Assembly: GCF_000023445.1 (NCBI RefSeq)
Contig: NC_012881.1
Coordinates: forward strand, 501,501 to 565,500
Direction: 5' to 3'
DNA: 64,000 nt
DNA from: Maridesulfovibrio salexigens DSM 2638
GTDB taxonomy: Bacteria > Desulfobacterota > Desulfovibrionia > Desulfovibrionales > Desulfovibrionaceae
Shown here: positions 11,007-26,469 of the stretch, in pieces
How positions within the stretch are numbered: the first letter of the stretch is position 1
Layout: each line of letters starts with the position of its first letter
The notes under the pieces: model-generated
Databases searched by the model: none
What the model saw: the letters and a program-made list of their open reading frames with translations, nothing else
Told to the model about the DNA's origin: nothing
Made by a program: the position numbers and the translations under genes

Positions 11007-11621
11007 ATGAGATACCAAGGCGAAGAGGCCCTCGGGCTTATCGAAACTCTCGGAATGGTTCCGTCCATCGGCGGCGCGGACCAGATGCTCAAAACAGCAG
11101 ATGTTAAACTCGTTGGTTATGAAAACATCGGGTCTACCCTTGTAGCCGTTATGGTTAAGGGTGATGTTGCCGCAGTAAAGGCTTCCGTGGAAGCGGGTGC
11201 CGCAACTGCAGCGGAAATCGGCAAGCTCACTGCTCAGAACGTTATGCCCCGCCCCATTCGCGGCGTCGGCGATATCGTGTCAGTTCATGGTGTGGAGACC
11301 ACGGACACCGATTACTCCGGCCCCCGTCCGCGGGCAATGGGTCTGATTGAAACATTCGGCATTGTTTACGTACTTGAAGCGGCAGACGCTATGATGAAAG
11401 CAGCAGATGTTGAACTCATCGGTTACGAGAACGTTGCTTCCGGATACATTTCCGTACTGGTTCAGGGTGATGTTGCAGCATGTCAGGCAGCTGTTGAAGC
11501 TGGCGTAAAAGCTGTGGAAAATATGGAAGCTGAAGTTTACGCTTCTCTGGTTATCCCTACACCCCATCGCGATCTGGAACAGATCACCAAGATCTACGCA
11601 ATTGACAACCTGCTTCCCTAA
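11007..11621 (+). CDS. Tandem-domain microcompartment shell protein (BMC-T)
   Basis: A 204-residue shell protein made of two ordinary Pfam00936 BMC domains in tandem: residues about 8-85 (ALGLIETLGMVPSIGGADQM) and 110-185 (AMGLIETFGIVYVLEAADAM). The halves are clearly alike and each ends with a proline-rich turn (MPRP, IPTPH), so it should form a trimer that mimics a hexamer. It lacks the pore cysteine seen in the two PduT-type proteins of this locus and is not a permuted PduB/EutL type. It is the first gene of the operon, with GGAG before ATG 11007. Confidence 0.9.
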   Translation: MRYQGEEALGLIETLGMVPSIGGADQMLKTADVKLVGYENIGSTLVAVMVKGDVAAVKASVEAGAATAAEIGKLTAQNVMPRPIRGVGDIVSVHGVETTDTDYSGPRPRAMGLIETFGIVYVLEAADAMMKAADVELIGYENVASGYISVLVQGDVAACQAAVEAGVKAVENMEAEVYASLVIPTPHRDLEQITKIYAIDNLLP

Positions 11622-11683: not shown

Positions 11684-13171
11684 ATGATTGTTGATAACGA
11701 TTTGCTCTCCATCCAGCAGGCCAGAATTCTGGCAGAGAATGCCCACGAGGCACAGAAAGAGCTGGCAACCTTTCCGCAGGAAAAGCTTGATGAAATCGTC
11801 GAGCATATTGCGGATGCGGTTGAGGAGCATGCCGAAGAGCTTGCGATCATGTCTCATGAAGAGACTGACGGCGGCAAATGGCAGGATAAGCTGGTCAAGA
11901 ACCGCTTCGTCTGTAATCAGGTCCGTAAGGAATTGCGCGGTATGCGCTGTGTGGGGGTTATCAAAGAGGACTCCCAGAAAAAGATTACTGACATCGGTGT
12001 TCCTGTCGGAGTTATCGCAGCTCTCTGTCCAGTGACTGGGCCGGTTTCAACCACGGTCTATAATACCCTGATTGCAATCAAATCTGGAAACGGTGTTATT
12101 TTTTCCCCCCATCCCGGTGCTGTGAAAAGTATCGGCCGGGTTCTGGATATTATGATCAAGGCCGGAGAATCCTGCGGTCTTCCTGAAGGCTGTCTTTCCT
12201 ATCTGGAAACAGTCACCAAAAGCGGAACCTGTGAACTTATGAATCACAGAAATGTTTCGCTGGTCATGGTTACCGGAGTTCCCGGGATGATTCAGTATGC
12301 CCAGAAAACAGGCAAACCGGTCATTTACGGGGGAACCGGCAACGGTCCGGCATTTATCGAACGTACTGCCGACATTGGGCAGGCAGTTAAAGATATCATT
12401 GCCAGCAAGACTTTTGATAACGGGATTGCTCCCTCAGCGGAGCAATCCATCGTTGTCGATTCCTGTGTTGCCGAGAACGTGCGCCAGTCCCTTAATTCTT
12501 GCGGGGCATACTTCATGTCCGAGAGTGAGGCCGAAGCTCTGGCCGAACTGTTCATCGCGCCCGATGGACAGCGCAGGAAAGGCATGGCTGGACAGTCCGC
12601 ACAGGTGCTTGCCCGTAGAGCCGGGTTCACCATTCCCGAAAATACCACCGTTCTGGTGGCGGAACGCAAATATGTTTCCGACACCGACCCCTACTACAGA
12701 GAATTTCTTTCCCCTGTACTGGCCCTTTATGTGGAAGACGATTGGATGCACGCATGTGAAAAGTGCATCGAGTTGCTGCTTCATGAAAGGAACGCACACA
12801 CTCTGGTTATTCACTCCGCAGATGAGGATGTGATTCTCCAGTTCGCTCTGAAGAAGCCTGTTGGCCGACTTCTGGTCAACACTCCGGCTGCTTTCGGTGG
12901 CATGGGTGCTACTACCAATCTGTTCCCCTCAATGACTCTGGGCAGTTCTTCTGCCGGATTCGGAATCACTTCCGACAACGTTTCTCCCATGAACCTTATC
13001 TACATCAGGAAGGTTGGTTGCGGTGTGAGACGTGCTGAAGAGGTGCTGGGACAGTCCGGTCAGGCAGGCGGTCAATATAAAGTTAAAGATAACGATTCCA
13101 ATATGGTGCAGGTGATTCAACAGATCCTGCAAAAGGCCATTGAAGCCATAGATGATCCTGCGGATCGCTAA
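11684..13171 (+). CDS. CoA-acylating aldehyde dehydrogenase paralogue lacking the catalytic cysteine
   Basis: A 495-residue homologue of EutE/PduP/CutF aldehyde dehydrogenases, colinear with the second copy at 17446-18891. In that copy the active-site block reads [12 protein letters not shown]; here it reads FDNGIAPSAEQS, so the catalytic Cys is Pro250 (CCC at 12431-12433) with altered neighbours. The nucleotide-binding region and the C-terminal block NTPAAFGGMGATTNLFPSMT are kept. The N-terminus DNDLLSIQQARILAENAHEA is an amphipathic helix like that of the active copy. It therefore cannot use the usual thioester mechanism and is more likely structural or regulatory, for example a scaffold or a partner subunit. 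The reading frame is intact, so it is not a decaying pseudogene. Confidence 0.85.
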   Translation: MIVDNDLLSIQQARILAENAHEAQKELATFPQEKLDEIVEHIADAVEEHAEELAIMSHEETDGGKWQDKLVKNRFVCNQVRKELRGMRCVGVIKEDSQKKITDIGVPVGVIAALCPVTGPVSTTVYNTLIAIKSGNGVIFSPHPGAVKSIGRVLDIMIKAGESCGLPEGCLSYLETVTKSGTCELMNHRNVSLVMVTGVPGMIQYAQKTGKPVIYGGTGNGPAFIERTADIGQAVKDIIASKTFDNGIAPSAEQSIVVDSCVAENVRQSLNSCGAYFMSESEAEALAELFIAPDGQRRKGMAGQSAQVLARRAGFTIPENTTVLVAERKYVSDTDPYYREFLSPVLALYVEDDWMHACEKCIELLLHERNAHTLVIHSADEDVILQFALKKPVGRLLVNTPAAFGGMGATTNLFPSMTLGSSSAGFGITSDNVSPMNLIYIRKVGCGVRRAEEVLGQSGQAGGQYKVKDNDSNMVQVIQQILQKAIEAIDDPADR

Positions 13172-15815: not shown

Positions 15816-16745
15816 GTGATTGAAAGAAAAGCACAGATATTCAACGTACAGAAATACAATATGCACGACGGTCCGGGAGTGAGAACTCTCGTATTCTTCC
15901 AGGGTTGCCCCCTGCGCTGTGAATGGTGCTCGAATCCCGAGGGACAGTATAAAAAATTCCAGGTCCTTTTCAAAAAGGATCAGTGTATAAATTGCGGAGC
16001 CTGTGTCTCCGTCTGTCCCGCAGGCGTGCACAAGATTGCCGCCGCAGGAAAACATTTCATCGACCGCGATGCTGAGTGTATCGGCTGCCGCAAATGTGAG
16101 CACGCCTGTCTGCAATCTGCACTGGCAATCGTTGGCGAAACAAAGACCATTTCCGAACTGGTCGAGATCATCGAAGAAGACCGCCCGTTTTATGAAACTT
16201 CCGGCGGCGGCGTAACTCTCGGCGGCGGTGAAGTCCTGTCCCAGCCTGTAGCTGCGGCAAGCCTTCTCCAGACCTGTAAGCAGCGCGGTATCAATACAGC
16301 CATTGAAACCTGTGGCTATGCCCGTCCTGAAGTAATTGAGAAGGTTGCACCTTTCGTGGATCTCTTTCTCTTTGACGTCAAACATATGAATTCCGAACGC
16401 CACCGTGAAATTACCGGTGTGCGTAATGAGATGATCCTCCAGAACCTGATCTGGCTTCTTGATAACAGATACAACGTCAAGATCAGGATGCCCATGCTCA
16501 AGGGTGTTAACGACGGCGAAGAAGAAATCCTTCAGCTGGTTGAGCTGCTTAAGCCTTATAAGGATCTCAAAAATTTCAAAGGGGTGGACCTGCTTCCCTA
16601 CCACAAGATGGGTGTGAACAAATACACTCAGCTCGGCTGGGAATACCCGGTGGAAGGTGACCCCAAACTGAGCAATGCCGATCTTGAACGCATTGAGCAG
16701 GCTATCACCAAATACAATTTTCCGGTCTCAGTGGTCAGACACTAG
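15816..16745 (+). CDS. cutD: Choline TMA-lyase activating enzyme (radical SAM)
   Basis: A 309-residue glycyl radical enzyme activase. The radical-SAM CxxxCxxC is Cys31-Cys35-Cys38 (GCPLRCEWC), preceded by the DGPGVRT motif typical of this class. Two ferredoxin-type clusters follow (CINCGACVSVCPAG, CIGCRKCEHACLQ), as in CutD and other activases with an inserted ferredoxin domain. It uses SAM and an electron to make the radical on Gly823 of CutC. It starts at GTG 15816 behind AAGAGAA, 67 bases after cutC. Confidence 0.96.
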   Translation: MIERKAQIFNVQKYNMHDGPGVRTLVFFQGCPLRCEWCSNPEGQYKKFQVLFKKDQCINCGACVSVCPAGVHKIAAAGKHFIDRDAECIGCRKCEHACLQSALAIVGETKTISELVEIIEEDRPFYETSGGGVTLGGGEVLSQPVAAASLLQTCKQRGINTAIETCGYARPEVIEKVAPFVDLFLFDVKHMNSERHREITGVRNEMILQNLIWLLDNRYNVKIRMPMLKGVNDGEEEILQLVELLKPYKDLKNFKGVDLLPYHKMGVNKYTQLGWEYPVEGDPKLSNADLERIEQAITKYNFPVSVVRH

Positions 16746-16775
16746 TCCAAATCAATGACAAGGGAGAACAGATTT

Positions 16776-17441
16776 ATGGATGCACTTGGATTCATTGAAA
16801 CAAAAGGGCTGCTGGCTGCCATTGAAGGCGCTGATGCCATGCTCAAAGCCGCTGCAGTGACCCTGCTGGAAAAGAATATTTCCGGCGGCGGGCTGGTGAC
16901 CATCAGTGTCAGCGGTGAAGTCTCTGCGGTACAGGCTTCTGTTGAAGCAGGCACTGCCGCCATCAGCCGTATCGAAGGCGCGGAGCTGGTTTCACATCAT
17001 GTGATTGCTCGTCCTTATGATGACATCAGCAAGATTATCGCAACCAGCGCTCCGGTTGCGGCAGCAAAAGAAATTTCACGGGAAGTAGCACAATCTCCCG
17101 CTTCTGCGGAAGGGCAGGCTCAGCCTGCTCCCGCGGAAGAGAAAGTCGAAGTAGAAGAAGCTCCGAAAACAGAACCTGAGGTTCTGAAAGAGGAAATCGA
17201 AGCTCCGGCAGTGCAGGAGTCCGCACCGAAGACTGAGGAAGTTGCCCCTAAAACCCCCAAGGCAAAGGAAGCAGCCCCGCAGTTCAAGCCCGCGGAACTC
17301 AGGAAAATGAAAATCAGTAAGGTTCGGCAGATTGCCAGAAGCTTGGAAGGTATTTCCCTGACCAACGAAGAGGTCAAAAAAGCCACCAAGAAAACCCTTA
17401 TTGACGCGATTATAAATGTTACCAGGCAGATAGAGGAGTAA
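16776..17441 (+). CDS. BMC-H shell protein with long linker and Rho-N/SAP-like tail
   Basis: A 221-residue shell protein. Residues about 1-88 are an ordinary hexamer-forming BMC domain (MDALGFIETKGLLAAIEGAD). Residues about 90-165 are a disordered linker rich in Ala, Pro, Glu and Lys. The last 50 residues (ELRKMKISKVRQIARSLEGI, then ATKKTLIDAI) match the helical pattern of Rho-N/SAP-type nucleic-acid-binding domains. The start is ATG 16776, nine bases after AGGGAG; an in-frame ATG at 16755 precedes that site. PduK-type shell proteins also carry tails, but theirs is usually a metal-binding motif. The tail may bind nucleic acid, cargo or another compartment; this is unproven. Confidence 0.85.
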   Translation: MDALGFIETKGLLAAIEGADAMLKAAAVTLLEKNISGGGLVTISVSGEVSAVQASVEAGTAAISRIEGAELVSHHVIARPYDDISKIIATSAPVAAAKEISREVAQSPASAEGQAQPAPAEEKVEVEEAPKTEPEVLKEEIEAPAVQESAPKTEEVAPKTPKAKEAAPQFKPAELRKMKISKVRQIARSLEGISLTNEEVKKATKKTLIDAIINVTRQIEE

Positions 17442-19431: not shown

Positions 19432-20103
19432 ATGAGCATGAACGAACAAGCCATCAATAATATCATGGAAGGGGTCATCAAAGGCGTAATCGAGCAGTTG
19501 AAGACCGAAGCTCCGCGTGTTTCCGTATCTACCGGTGCATGCGAACCCATTCCCGTAGAACTTTCCGCCCGCCACGTTCACCTCAGCGAGCAGGACGCCC
19601 TTGAGCTTTTCGGTAAACCTCTGACCCCGGTTCGTGAACTTTCCCAGCCCGGTCAGTACCTCTGTGAAGAGCGCGTACGTCTCATCGGCCCCAAAGGTGT
19701 CATGGACAACGTCGCTGTACTTGGACCTGCACGTTCCGCTTCACAGGTAGAAATTTCCAATACTGAAGCGCGTACCCTCGGTATCAAAGCTCCGGTTCGC
19801 CAGTCCGGTGATGTTGCCGGTACCCCCGGTATCATCCTCGCTTCTCAGACCGGAATTGTCGGTCTCGAAGAAGGCGTTATCGTGGCAGCTCGTCATATTC
19901 ACATGTCTCCTGAAGACAGTGACAAGTTCGGCGTGAAAGATAACGACCGCGTAAGCGTACGTCTCGAAAGCGATCGCCCGGTTATTCTTGAAGACGTGGT
20001 TTGCCGCGTTCACCCCGAGTTCAAGCTGGCTATGCACATCGATCCCGATGAAGGCAACAGCGCAGGCTGGAACAAGTCTGTAACCGGTAAGATTGTAAGA
20101 TAG
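19432..20103 (+). CDS. pduL: PduL-type phosphotransacylase
   Basis: A 223-residue enzyme that converts acetyl-CoA and phosphate into acetyl phosphate and CoA, recycling CoA inside the compartment. The paired zinc-binding motifs SARHVHLSEQD and AARHIHMSPED are diagnostic, as is HIDPDEGNSAGW near the end. The first 25 residues (INNIMEGVIKGVIEQLKTEA) form a typical encapsulation helix. ATG 19432 and ATG 19438 are both possible and neither has a clear Shine-Dalgarno, unlike its neighbours; translation may be deliberately weak. Confidence 0.92.
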   Translation: MSMNEQAINNIMEGVIKGVIEQLKTEAPRVSVSTGACEPIPVELSARHVHLSEQDALELFGKPLTPVRELSQPGQYLCEERVRLIGPKGVMDNVAVLGPARSASQVEISNTEARTLGIKAPVRQSGDVAGTPGIILASQTGIVGLEEGVIVAARHIHMSPEDSDKFGVKDNDRVSVRLESDRPVILEDVVCRVHPEFKLAMHIDPDEGNSAGWNKSVTGKIVR

Positions 20104-22029: not shown

Positions 22030-22578
22030 ATGGATACGCTGGGTATAGTTGAAGTTTTCAGCATCGCTGCCGGAGTGCGCATAGCAGATGCAATGATGAA
22101 AGCTGCGGACGTGGAACTTGTCCGCGCTTCTACTATTTGCTCCGGCAGGTATCTGATTTTTGTTTCCGGTGAACGCTCTGCTGTTTCTGCAAGTGTTGAT
22201 GCTGCGGACGCTGACCAAGGTAAGGTCAAGGCCAGCTTTGTTATTTCCAGCCTTTCACCGGAAGTGGCTGCAGTGCTGAAAAGCCCTGTAGCTCTTGCTG
22301 ATGTCCAGTCCATTGGAGTCATCGAGTGCCGCAACGTTTCCACCGGCGTAATGGCAGCGGATGTGGCGGTTAAGCGTTCCGGTATCGAGCTGGCCCGTTT
22401 TGTCGCAGGGCAGGGCATTAACGGCAAATCATATTTCGTTATGAGTGGCGATGTTGCTGCGGTTCAGGAAGCCGCAGATGCAGCATCCGCCGCTTTGGGC
22501 AACAATCTTGTTGAGGCGGTCGTCATCCCCGGACCCGACGCCTCGGTCGTAAAGGCCTTAGTAAGGGGAACGAGGTAA
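22030..22578 (+). CDS. PduT-type tandem shell protein with pore cysteine (first copy)
   Basis: A 182-residue protein of two BMC domains. The first contains RASTICSGRY with Cys37 at the position of the PduT cysteine (PduT: KTICPGK) that binds one [4Fe-4S] cluster on the threefold axis of the trimer. The second begins QSIGVIECRNVSTGVMAADV. It starts five bases after eutN without a strong ribosome binding site, so coupling is likely. It would sit in the shell as a redox gate or cluster-exchange site together with PduS and the second PduT-type protein. Confidence 0.85.
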   Translation: MDTLGIVEVFSIAAGVRIADAMMKAADVELVRASTICSGRYLIFVSGERSAVSASVDAADADQGKVKASFVISSLSPEVAAVLKSPVALADVQSIGVIECRNVSTGVMAADVAVKRSGIELARFVAGQGINGKSYFVMSGDVAAVQEAADAASAALGNNLVEAVVIPGPDASVVKALVRGTR

Positions 22579-23287: not shown

Positions 23288-23346
23288 ATACAAATTTCAA
23301 GCTGAATAGATTTTAACCCTGACATTTTGATTTATTGGAGAAAAGG

Positions 23347-24456
23347 GTGACACAGTTCTACGGCAAAACAAAGATCTGCTATGGCGAAGATGCTCTGGAC
23401 AATCTGGAGACTATCCCGGCAACGCGGGCTTTTATTGTTACCGATTCATTCATGGTAAAGACCGGTTTTGTTGACCGGGTCCGCACCCATCTTGACCGTA
23501 AAGGGATTCCCTTCATCATCTTCGATGAGGTTGAACCCGATCCTTCCCTTGAGACAGTTACCAAGGGAGCACAGATTTTCCTTAAAAACCAAGCCGACCT
23601 GATCATCGCTCTCGGCGGTGGTTCTCCCATTGATGCGGCCAAGGCTATCTCCTTTTTCGCTGGGAAGGCTCTTGAAGGAAAGGTCAAACCGACACTGGTC
23701 GCTATTCCCACCACCAGTGGTACCGGGGCTGAAGTTACCAGCTATGCTGTGGTCACCGACAAGGTAAACGAGGTCAAGATTCCTCTTAACGATGAAATGC
23801 TCATCCCGGATATGGCTATCCTCGATGCCCGTTTCACCCGTTCCCTGCCGCCGCATGTAACTGCTGCAACAGGAATGGACGTGCTGACCCACGCTATTGA
23901 GGCATACACTTCCCGTGAGGCCAACGCTTTTACTTCTATCTATGCAAGATACGCCATCAGTTACGTATTCAAGTATCTCAAGCGGGCCTACATAAACGGT
24001 GATGATATGGAAGCACGTGAGAACATGCTTCTCGGTTCCTGCATGGCAGGTATGGCTTTCAACAACAGCGGACTGGGTATCACCCATTCCATCGCCCACT
24101 CTCTTGGCGGTATTTTTCATGTGCCGCACGGACTGGCAAACGCAGTAGTTCTGCCTCACGCAATCAAGTTCAACAGCTTTGATGTGGGCATCCGCTACCA
24201 CGAAATTGCCACCATGCTGGAACTGCCCGCAGAAACTGTCGAAGAAGGAACCCGTTCCCTCATCGATGCGGTCATGGAACTTAACGAGTCCATGGGCATT
24301 CCCAACAATGTCGGTTCATTGAAGATTGATGAAAGTGTTTTTAAAACCAGCCTGAATACCATTGCCCGCAACGTGCTTGATGATATCTGCACTGGTAGCA
24401 ACCCCAGAAACCCTTCACGTGATGATGTGAAAGAGCTTCTGCTGAAGGCTTGGTAA
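23347..24456 (+). CDS. cutO: Iron-type alcohol dehydrogenase of the choline compartment
   Basis: A 369-residue group III (iron-dependent) alcohol dehydrogenase, like EutG. It reduces acetaldehyde to ethanol and regenerates NAD+ for the aldehyde dehydrogenase. Visible motifs: NAD loop ALGGGSPIDAAKA, TTSGTGAEVTSYAV, and the metal-binding histidines in GLGITHSIAHSLGG and VPHGLANAVVLPH. The start is GTG 23347, six bases after GGAG; a TTG 12 bases upstream overlaps that site. Unlike the other enzymes it shows no clear targeting extension. Confidence 0.9.
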   Translation: MTQFYGKTKICYGEDALDNLETIPATRAFIVTDSFMVKTGFVDRVRTHLDRKGIPFIIFDEVEPDPSLETVTKGAQIFLKNQADLIIALGGGSPIDAAKAISFFAGKALEGKVKPTLVAIPTTSGTGAEVTSYAVVTDKVNEVKIPLNDEMLIPDMAILDARFTRSLPPHVTAATGMDVLTHAIEAYTSREANAFTSIYARYAISYVFKYLKRAYINGDDMEARENMLLGSCMAGMAFNNSGLGITHSIAHSLGGIFHVPHGLANAVVLPHAIKFNSFDVGIRYHEIATMLELPAETVEEGTRSLIDAVMELNESMGIPNNVGSLKIDESVFKTSLNTIARNVLDDICTGSNPRNPSRDDVKELLLKAW

Positions 24457-24534: not shown

Positions 24535-25860
24535 ATGGCTGCAAATATAGTTGATATTATTCGTGAAACAGGTGTTGTCGGTGCCGGTGGTGCTGGCCTC
24601 CCGACTCACGTTAAGGCCGAGGCAAACGTAGATACCGTTCTGGTGAACGGTGCTTCCTGTGAACCGCTGCTTATGAGCGACCCCTACCTCATGGAAGCTG
24701 AAGTAGATACCATGATCCGCGGCCTTGAAGCGATTATGGACTGCACCGGTGCCAAGAAAGGTATTATCTGTCTTAAGGGTAAACACGCCAAGGCAGTTAA
24801 AGCTGTTCAGGAAGCTGTTGCCCGTGACGGTTCCGGTCGCCTCGAATGTTTCGTACTTAAAGATTTTTATCCTGCCGGTGATGAGCAGGTACTGGTTTAC
24901 GAAGTTCTGGGTCGTACTGTCCCTGAACGCGGTATCCCCCTTCAGGTGGGCGCTGTTGTAAGTAACACCGAGTCCCTGTTCAACGTTGCACTGGCAATGG
25001 ACGGTAAGCCGGTAACTCACCGCTACCTGACCGTTGCCGGGGAAATCAAGAACCCCATGGTTGTTAAAGTTCCCGTGGGAACTCTTGTTTCCGACGTGCT
25101 TGAGTTCGCAGGCGGACCGACTATTTCCGACTACAAAGTTGTAGACGGCGGTCCCATGATGGGTCGGGTTCTCCCCGACACCAATCAGCCGGTAACCAAG
25201 ACTACCAGTGGCCTTCTGGTTCTGCCCCCGAACCACAACGTGGTAGCAGGCAAGGTTATGGATCCCGAAAAGATCCGCCGCATCACCAACACTGTCTGCT
25301 GTCAGTGTTCCCGCTGCACCGACCTTTGCCCGCGTAACCTGCTTGGTCATTCCCTGCATCCCCACAAACTGATGCGTGTAATCGCCAACAATGAGCTGAA
25401 TACCGAAGCCGCTAAAGAAGCACTGCTTTGCTCCGAATGTGGCATCTGTGAAAAATTCTCCTGCCCCATGATGATTTCTCCTCGTGAGGTAAACGCCCAG
25501 ATTAAGCAGATCCTCATGAAGGAACGCGTGACTTGGGAATCCAAGGGGAATGAGCTTAAAACCAACCCGTTCCGCGAAAGCAGGGCTATCCCGACCAAGC
25601 GTCTGATTCAGCGCCTGAATCTTTCCAAGTATGACGGTCATCCTGAATACGCTGGCGAGTACACTCCCTCCGTGGTCAACATCCGCCTTGGTCAGCACAT
25701 CGGTGCTCCTGCGCAGTGTGTTGTCTCCGCAGGAGATAAGGTAAGCTGTGGCGACCTGATCGGTGAAATTCCCGAAGGCGCAATGGGTGCAAGGGTTCAC
25801 GCCAGCATCGACGGAACAGTCGAAAGCGTTGAAAACGGCGTAGTGGTTATCAAGAAATAA
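24535..25860 (+). CDS. pduS: PduS-type flavin/iron-sulfur oxidoreductase (RnfC-like)
   Basis: A 441-residue protein with the RnfC/NqrF-like N-terminal start GVVGAGGAGLPTHVKAEA, the FMN/NADH-binding core and SLBB region, and two 4Fe-4S motifs (CCQCSRCTDLCP and CSECGICEKFSCP). In the Pdu system PduS reduces cobalamin and interacts with PduT; here no B12 enzyme is present, so it more likely passes electrons between NADH and an acceptor, perhaps to reactivate CutD or balance NADH. GGAAGG precedes ATG 24535. Confidence 0.9.
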   Translation: MAANIVDIIRETGVVGAGGAGLPTHVKAEANVDTVLVNGASCEPLLMSDPYLMEAEVDTMIRGLEAIMDCTGAKKGIICLKGKHAKAVKAVQEAVARDGSGRLECFVLKDFYPAGDEQVLVYEVLGRTVPERGIPLQVGAVVSNTESLFNVALAMDGKPVTHRYLTVAGEIKNPMVVKVPVGTLVSDVLEFAGGPTISDYKVVDGGPMMGRVLPDTNQPVTKTTSGLLVLPPNHNVVAGKVMDPEKIRRITNTVCCQCSRCTDLCPRNLLGHSLHPHKLMRVIANNELNTEAAKEALLCSECGICEKFSCPMMISPREVNAQIKQILMKERVTWESKGNELKTNPFRESRAIPTKRLIQRLNLSKYDGHPEYAGEYTPSVVNIRLGQHIGAPAQCVVSAGDKVSCGDLIGEIPEGAMGARVHASIDGTVESVENGVVVIKK

Positions 25861-25917: not shown

Positions 25918-26469
25918 ATGGATTTACGTACTATCGGTTGTGTAGAACTGAACAGCGTTGCCCTCGGCATACACACCGCAGATGAAATGCTTAAAGCAGC
26001 ATCTGTCGAGCTGGTTATGGCCCGCCCCACATGTCCGGGCAGATATATTGTAGTTATTTGCGGTGACACCGGCGCTGTTAAAAGCTCCGTTGAAGTCGGT
26101 TGTGAAATCGGCGGCGACATGATTGTTGACCACTTCACCATCCCCAGCATCCACGCTGATGTTATCCCTGCACTGAGCGGTACTTCCATCGTACCTCGCA
26201 TCAATGCACTGGGCGTAATTGAAACTTACACCATCGCATCCTGTATCCTTGCTGCCGATGCCGCAGCAAAGGCTGCTAACGTTAGCCTGATCGAAGTTCG
26301 TATGGCTGCTGGTCTCGGTGGTAAAGCCTATGTAACCATGACCGGTGACGTAGGTTCTGTTAAAGCTTCTGTTGAAGCAGGAATCGAAGGCGTCGGCGAC
26401 GGCGGCCCGGTTCATAGCCATGTAGTAATTCCTTCCCCCAGCGAAGAGATTAAAGCACAGTTGATCTAG
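25918..26469 (+). CDS. pduT: PduT-type tandem shell protein with pore cysteine (second copy)
   Basis: A 183-residue protein of two BMC domains, close to PduT along its length: ELNSVALGIHTADEMLKAAS and the cysteine in ARPTCPGRY (Cys39), then the second domain INALGVIETYTIASCILAAD. In PduT this cysteine binds a [4Fe-4S] cluster in the trimer pore. It directly follows pduS with AAAAGGAG before ATG 25918, which supports a shared electron-transfer job. Confidence 0.92.
   Translation: MDLRTIGCVELNSVALGIHTADEMLKAASVELVMARPTCPGRYIVVICGDTGAVKSSVEVGCEIGGDMIVDHFTIPSIHADVIPALSGTSIVPRINALGVIETYTIASCILAADAAAKAANVSLIEVRMAAGLGGKAYVTMTGDVGSVKASVEAGIEGVGDGGPVHSHVVIPSPSEEIKAQLI

Follow-up and report, generated by a model that had tools for sequence, protein, structure and literature searches.

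The second gene of a choline-utilisation operon in Maridesulfovibrio salexigens DSM 2638 encodes an aldehyde dehydrogenase (AldDH) without its catalytic cysteine, and trees place it as sister to CutF, the AldDH of GRM2 choline microcompartments. We somewhat favour the reading, drawn from comparison of sequences, that this dead sister of GRM2 CutF has been retained in the GRM1 choline microcompartment as a structural cargo protein. The dead AldDH is real and was confirmed, there is good support for a conserved role without catalysis, and the job of the protein is probably structural. The window is the whole stretch of 64,000 nucleotides in which the operon was read, and its features are collected in Table 1.

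Table 1. Features of the choline operon in the window and the evidence on which each was assigned.
Feature	Coordinates	Strand	Evidence
First operon gene, double-BMC (BMC-T) shell protein	11007..11621	+	PF00936, two stretches
Dead AldDH (pseudoenzyme), sister to GRM2 CutF, 495 aa	11684..13171	+	BLASTP, residue census, trees
Gly119 codon, counterpart of Asn118 of the active copy	12038..12040	+	Residue alignment
Pro250 codon at the catalytic Cys position	12431..12433	+	Translation, BLASTP alignment, census
C-terminal helix, residues 472-490, encapsulation-peptide-like	13097..13153	+	AlphaFold2 model
cutC, choline trimethylamine-lyase, 848 aa	13202..15748	+	TIGR04394, 1659 bits (cut-off 1050)
CutC N-terminal extension, first 59 residues, outside TIGR04394	13202..13378	+	Profile alignment
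cutD, CutC-activating enzyme	15816..16745	+	TIGR04395, 585 bits, above cut-off
Active acylating AldDH, Cys247, 481 aa	17446..18891	+	TIGR02518, 655.7 bits
PduL-type phosphotransacylase	19432..20103	+	PF06130
Iron-type alcohol dehydrogenase	23335..24456	+	PF00465
PduS-like flavin/FeS protein, RnfC family	24535..25860	+	PF01512, RnfC_N, SLBB, TIGR01945

The preliminary description of this DNA had read the gene as an intact frame, second in the operon, whose catalytic Cys had become Pro. Each of these points held: the ORF runs through all 495 aa, the BMC-T gene precedes it on the same strand, and the Pro250 codon falls within 12421..12440, the segment in which the change had been placed with the right letters. 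BLASTP aligned the dead copy with the active AldDH of the window at 42% identity over 443 columns (E 4e-129). As had also been claimed, the alignment passes through the active site, which is ungapped; the dead copy reads FDNGIAPSAEQ there, with its Pro250 opposite Cys247. The active copy has Asn118, which we take to be the oxyanion Asn, where the dead copy has Gly119. With 534.6 bits against a TIGR02518 cut-off of 620.1, the dead copy is by that model not an acetylating acetaldehyde dehydrogenase, and the catalytic Cys of TIGR02518 is Pro250 in it; the active copy scores above the cut-off.

The locus itself had been taken for GRM2, an assignment that had to be given up. Its signature enzymes CutC and CutD both score above their cut-offs, it contains BMC-T, PduS-like and PduT-like genes and two AldDHs, one of them lacking the catalytic Cys, and its CutC is without an extension of ~340 aa. 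Three genes of the locus carry two BMC domains, the best match of two of them being PduT (TIGR02526), below the cut-off of that model; the name PduS for the flavin/FeS protein was given by family and context. GRM2 loci, in the extracts of PMC6971018 and PMC6325248 used here, are without BMC-T and have a CutC with an N-terminal extension of ~340 aa, whereas in the window BMC-T is present and CutC has 848 aa. The three double-domain shell genes, the PduS-like protein and the 848-aa CutC therefore identify the locus as GRM1 and not GRM2. All 10 BMC-domain matches in the whole genome of the window lie inside this choline cluster. Two double-BMC proteins (22030-22578 and 25918-26469) are PduT-like and both have a Cys-x-Gly-Arg-Tyr motif, given as that of FeS-binding PduT pores in the same extract of PMC6325248, and a 228-aa BMC-domain shell protein (16755-17441) ends in a Pro/Ala/Glu-rich tail of ~140 aa with a basic stretch at its end.

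A dead AldDH in GRM1 loci is a known phenomenon, in print since 2014. In the portions of these papers available to us, Axen 2014 (PMC4207490) described the second AldDH of GRM1 loci as inactive, with Cys replaced by Pro or Ser, and proposed a role as scaffold or regulator, and Sutter 2021 (PMC8217296) labelled GRM1A/B as having a "putatively inactive second copy". The dead copy of the window agrees with that published AldDH in locus type, in the kind of protein and in the Cys to Pro/Ser replacement. Beyond what those portions contain, we found versions with Ala and Thr, placed the dead copies as sister to GRM2 CutF, saw that within one family they closely accompany encapsulated CutC, and found that they persist where the active enzyme was replaced or not found. 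The literature was searched for a functional test of the inactive GRM1 AldDH and none was found.

Orthologues were collected from a search of the phylum (16 of 395 genomes matched), a genome-contig scan (16 loci, obtained with two N-terminal peptide patterns and so near relatives only), a search of the family Desulfovibrionaceae (288 genomes, all 55 with a dead copy being read) and plasmid records, the Bacillota GRM1 copies coming from two of the five Enterococcus raffinosus plasmid records with CutC matches. Removal of identical ORFs reduced 146 sequences to 127 distinct non-AdhE homologues, GRM2 and EUT references included. The catalytic position is Cys in 65 of these and another residue in 62 (Pro 52, Ser 6, Ala 3 and Thr 1). 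The two groups are defined by the residue itself and were cross-checked by scores and by the tree: all 62 non-Cys copies score higher to the dead copy of the window than to its active copy, and 64 of the 65 Cys-type proteins score higher to the active copy; the one that does not is a Klebsiella CutF recorded with a broken frame. The oxyanion Asn position is N in 65/65 Cys-type proteins, and S in 48, N in 7, G in 6 and D in 1 of the dead copies.

The preliminary description had proposed a survey of the catalytic residue across loci, and none of the GRM1-type loci fetched has the Cys in the AldDH that immediately precedes cutC. Between dead copy and CutC lie 12-190 bp (median 31) in 61 of the 62 cases; for the last (L036), which lay outside the gap script, the frame ends at 11446 and the CutC frame opens at 11472. 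Dead copies are present in Desulfobacterota and Bacillota, the E. raffinosus copy (Bacillota) reading FDNGLLPSAEQ in a gene directly 5′ of cutC. A sequencing error or a loss in one strain was ruled out by the 62 copies. Viral contigs scanned with the window protein gave no relative.

For a quick tree, the rows were thinned at 88% identity to 87, with the E. raffinosus copy included. The dead copies formed one clade (SH-aLRT 99) with GRM2 CutF as its sister (93). This single clade took in the 43 non-Cys rows that survived thinning and no Cys row, so that relatives with the Cys restored, which the preliminary description had named as evidence against its claim, were absent from it. A careful tree of 51 rows, from which three long dead-copy rows including that of E. 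raffinosus were omitted, supported the dead clade at 100/100 and its union with GRM2 CutF at 100/97. The E. raffinosus copy has a very long branch (3.08), and its placement therefore leans also on gene order and motif. A clade of dead copies with the active AldDH of the operon was rejected (p-AU 0.028). Because the dead clade is sister to GRM2 CutF, the dead copy is no duplicate of the enzyme of its own operon, and the view of it as a dead copy of that enzyme was abandoned; a recent duplication of the active copy was ruled out by the p-AU value together with the sister relation. Eighteen positions are common to dead copies and GRM2 CutF as against the GRM1 active enzymes, nine of which occur in none of three EUT references. 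GRM2 CutF (Klebsiella, Proteus), also a choline microcompartment cargo, is 51-51.5% identical to the dead copy of the window and, unlike it, has the Cys; the two GRM2 loci read contain one AldDH each and a CutC frame of 1149-1165 codons.

The AlphaFold2 model of the dead copy (mean pLDDT 82.4, pTM 0.80) has 3k9d as its nearest solved structure (TM 0.87 by query length). The protein resembles EutE-type acetylating AldDHs (TIGR02518; 3k9d, 5j78) in fold, length and position of the C-terminal peptide, and differs from them in lying under the family cut-off and in the replacement of the catalytic Cys and the oxyanion Asn. Its C-terminal helix follows a linker with pLDDT <50 and occupies the place of the encapsulation peptide that the consulted part of Sutter 2021 (PMC8217296) gives for type I AldDHs. 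Hydrophobic helix-like terminal segments were seen in the tails of the dead copies, read by eye and unscored, and were least clear in one locus (L092).

The distribution of the gene was followed in 288 Desulfovibrionaceae genomes. CutC (at least 1390 bits) is present in 62 of them, 55 of which have the dead copy, and no genome has a dead copy without CutC; this 0 of 55 is the independent count of co-occurrence. The CutC of all 55 dead-copy genomes has the N-terminal extension (54 by search alignment and G405 by inspection), and that of the seven CutC genomes without a dead copy lacks it in every case. A genome-wide search for BMC domains (E 0.001) found none in these seven, only three of which are at least 90% complete, and an AldDH sought in the fetched 9-18 kb of their loci (L113-L119) was not found, the matches among the window proteins searched being GRE and CutD only. 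Their CutC is 76-79% identical to that of the window; CutC outside a microcompartment is already known from PMC6620236, of which an extract was used. With 55 of 55 dead copies accompanied by CutC and seven exceptions in which no shell gene was found, the gene tracks CutC together with the shell within this family. The survey thus appears to narrow the function of the dead copy towards encapsulated CutC, and the co-occurrence could reflect an operon inherited as a block. A dead copy is absent from seven shell loci that have a Cys-type AldDH but gave no CutC match (L093, L094, L097-L101); they were fetched since they were listed with a Cys-type match and no dead copy, and serve as an illustration and not as an independent count. 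Six of their genomes were in the CutC search and gave no match, and the seventh (G340) was outside that search. In the two GRM2 loci read, CutC and shell occur with an active CutF and no dead copy, so the pair is not always in need of one.

The dead copy is under purifying selection, and that it is a decaying relic without function is hardly credible. It has evolved somewhat faster than the active copy, the median Nei-Gojobori omega over the same 48 pairs (dS 0.1-0.8) being 0.226 (0.041-0.565) against 0.175 (0.016-0.446), with the high values probably inflated by near-saturated dS. However, omega between the window and L024, L052 and L055 is 0.045-0.078 (0.075-0.101 for the active copy), each of the 62 copies reads as one unbroken frame of 477-595 codons, 123 of 495 positions are at least 95% conserved among them, and copies occur in two phyla; the low omega and intact frames contradict the relic reading. 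Pro (52 copies) and Ala (3) are incapable as nucleophile and the presumed oxyanion Asn is mostly lost, which leaves a very low probability for catalysis by some other route, for example through the Ser or Thr found at the site in six copies and one copy, respectively. In favour of such catalysis, the part of Price 2014 at hand (PMC4215793) puts Dde_3283 of D. alaskensis G20, an orthologue by position only, among the genes of acetaldehyde disproportionation. Binding of NAD(H), CoA or acyl-CoA without turnover, by which the protein would act as a lumen buffer or redox sensor, has a small chance of being its function. The GxGN and PHP motifs, Glu340 (60/62) and His372 (49/62) are retained, but a glycine that is presumably part of the cofactor loop, G in 65/65 Cys-type proteins, is Val in 53 of the 62 dead copies. 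The consulted section of PMC5311937 assigns catalytic roles in AldDH to a Glu and a His, and Glu340 and His372 may be these residues by our reading of motifs, on which the match depends because counting by offset from the Cys missed them.

Among the non-catalytic roles, the preliminary description had offered scaffold, chaperone and tetramer partner. Its general claim of a non-catalytic role stood, given a single clade without Cys and purifying selection; the scaffold is the role that we infer for the dead copy, and a tetramer with the active enzyme came out as the least supported of the candidates. That the dead copy is a subunit or allosteric partner, tuning or stabilising the active AldDH in a hetero-tetramer, is unlikely. 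Both proteins are homologous and encoded in the same operon, a GRM3 AldDH was crystallised as a tetramer (PMC5311937, same section), and the partial correlation of their distance matrices was 0.33 over 50 loci (0.35 without the loci with a swapped active enzyme). Against this, the two copies share only the 42% identity given above, and the active copy comes from different lineages at different loci, the Cys-type enzymes of E. raffinosus and of G522/G527/G529 forming a separate lineage in the trees. Two genomes listed as 99% complete (G524 and G530) keep shell genes, dead copy, CutC and CutD in a cut locus, in which searches with the active AldDH, PduL and alcohol dehydrogenase of the window gave no match; genome-wide, TIGR02518 matched the dead copy and one ORF of ~222 bits, which has a Cys motif and sits in a second shell-gene cluster. 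These reduced choline loci lie at 307-322 kb of G524:C5 (L078, L129) and on G530:C13 (L079, L130). Furthermore, the same active lineage occurs without a dead copy in four shell loci, which were fetched since none was listed for them. The tetramer is least supported because some loci have an active enzyme of another lineage and in the two cut loci none was found, and an active partner thus seems not to be required by the dead copy. Assistance in CutC activation, with the dead copy as a chaperone or escort, either keeping CutC in place for CutD or bringing CutD into the shell, is also improbable. The gene lies directly before cutC-cutD, recombinant GRM2 CutD was insoluble (PMC6971018, in the extract used), and CutD gave the highest partial distance correlation with the dead copy (0.59 over 50 loci and 0.47 without the swapped loci, against -0.13 and 0.015 for CutC and -0.23 and 0.02 for PduL). 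With the other genes controlled for, the distances of the dead AldDH therefore track CutD closer than CutC, and the partner test over these 50 loci neither singled out CutC nor showed any special co-evolution with it. Mirror-tree correlations are weak evidence, however, and the seven CutC-CutD genomes in which no shell gene was found do without a dead copy, so activation as such is not in need of it.

The structural cargo reading draws on GRM2, in which CutC carries CutF into particles, CutF and the N-terminal domain of CutC cross-link the core, and the association of the two depends on the CutC extension of ~340 aa (PMC6971018, same extract). As the dead copy is the sister of this core-cross-linking CutF, we infer that the packing role was kept. 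In the GRM1 ancestor, a separate AldDH lineage would have taken over acetaldehyde oxidation, leaving the CutF-type protein with the packing function alone and its chemistry lost. The dead copy would be co-produced with CutC and assemble into an oligomer of its own; by attaching to CutC (or CutC-CutD) and, through the terminal helix, to the shell, it would gather CutC into the core of the organelle. Two observations count against packing of CutC by the dead copy: GRM1 CutC is without the extension on which the association in GRM2 depends, and the correlations between partners favour CutD and not CutC. Expression lends some support to the reading: in C. ljungdahlii, the AldDH gene beside the choline lyase, treated here, by position only, as the dead-copy orthologue (CLJU_RS19625), was up by log2 7.2 on choline versus fructose, and the GRM1 acetaldehyde dehydrogenase by log2 5.6 on choline, according to the section of PMC12016505 consulted.

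A wider version of this reading, which we put forward only tentatively, is that one AldDH lineage once did both acetaldehyde oxidation and CutC cross-linking. GRM2 CutF would still do both, and GRM1 would have split them, the dead CutF-type protein beside cutC being indispensable for core assembly and staying on even where the active enzyme is replaced or lost. If this were true, a pseudoenzyme would decide the packing of a trimethylamine-producing enzyme, GRM1 and GRM2 would allow one protein to be compared, in nature, in its catalytic and its non-catalytic form, and at least one fitness study would have been wrong to list the gene as that of an acetaldehyde enzyme (PMC4215793, in the part at hand; orthology by position).

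Choline loci were also noted in other settings. A GRM1 choline locus with a dead AldDH lies on records of ~1 Mb labelled as E. raffinosus plasmids (L110, L111). Two Pseudomonadota drafts, one of Gammaproteobacteria and one of Neisseriaceae (L027, L036), contain a GRM1-type CutC and a dead AldDH in the same gene order, which suggests transfer or mis-binning. In the genome of the window but outside the window itself, a second gene for a CutC-like glycyl radical enzyme (G000:C1:3906929-3909307; L122) has one in-frame TGA; the same position is Gly in nine other aligned proteins, which points to a nonsense change or an assembly error rather than to selenocysteine.
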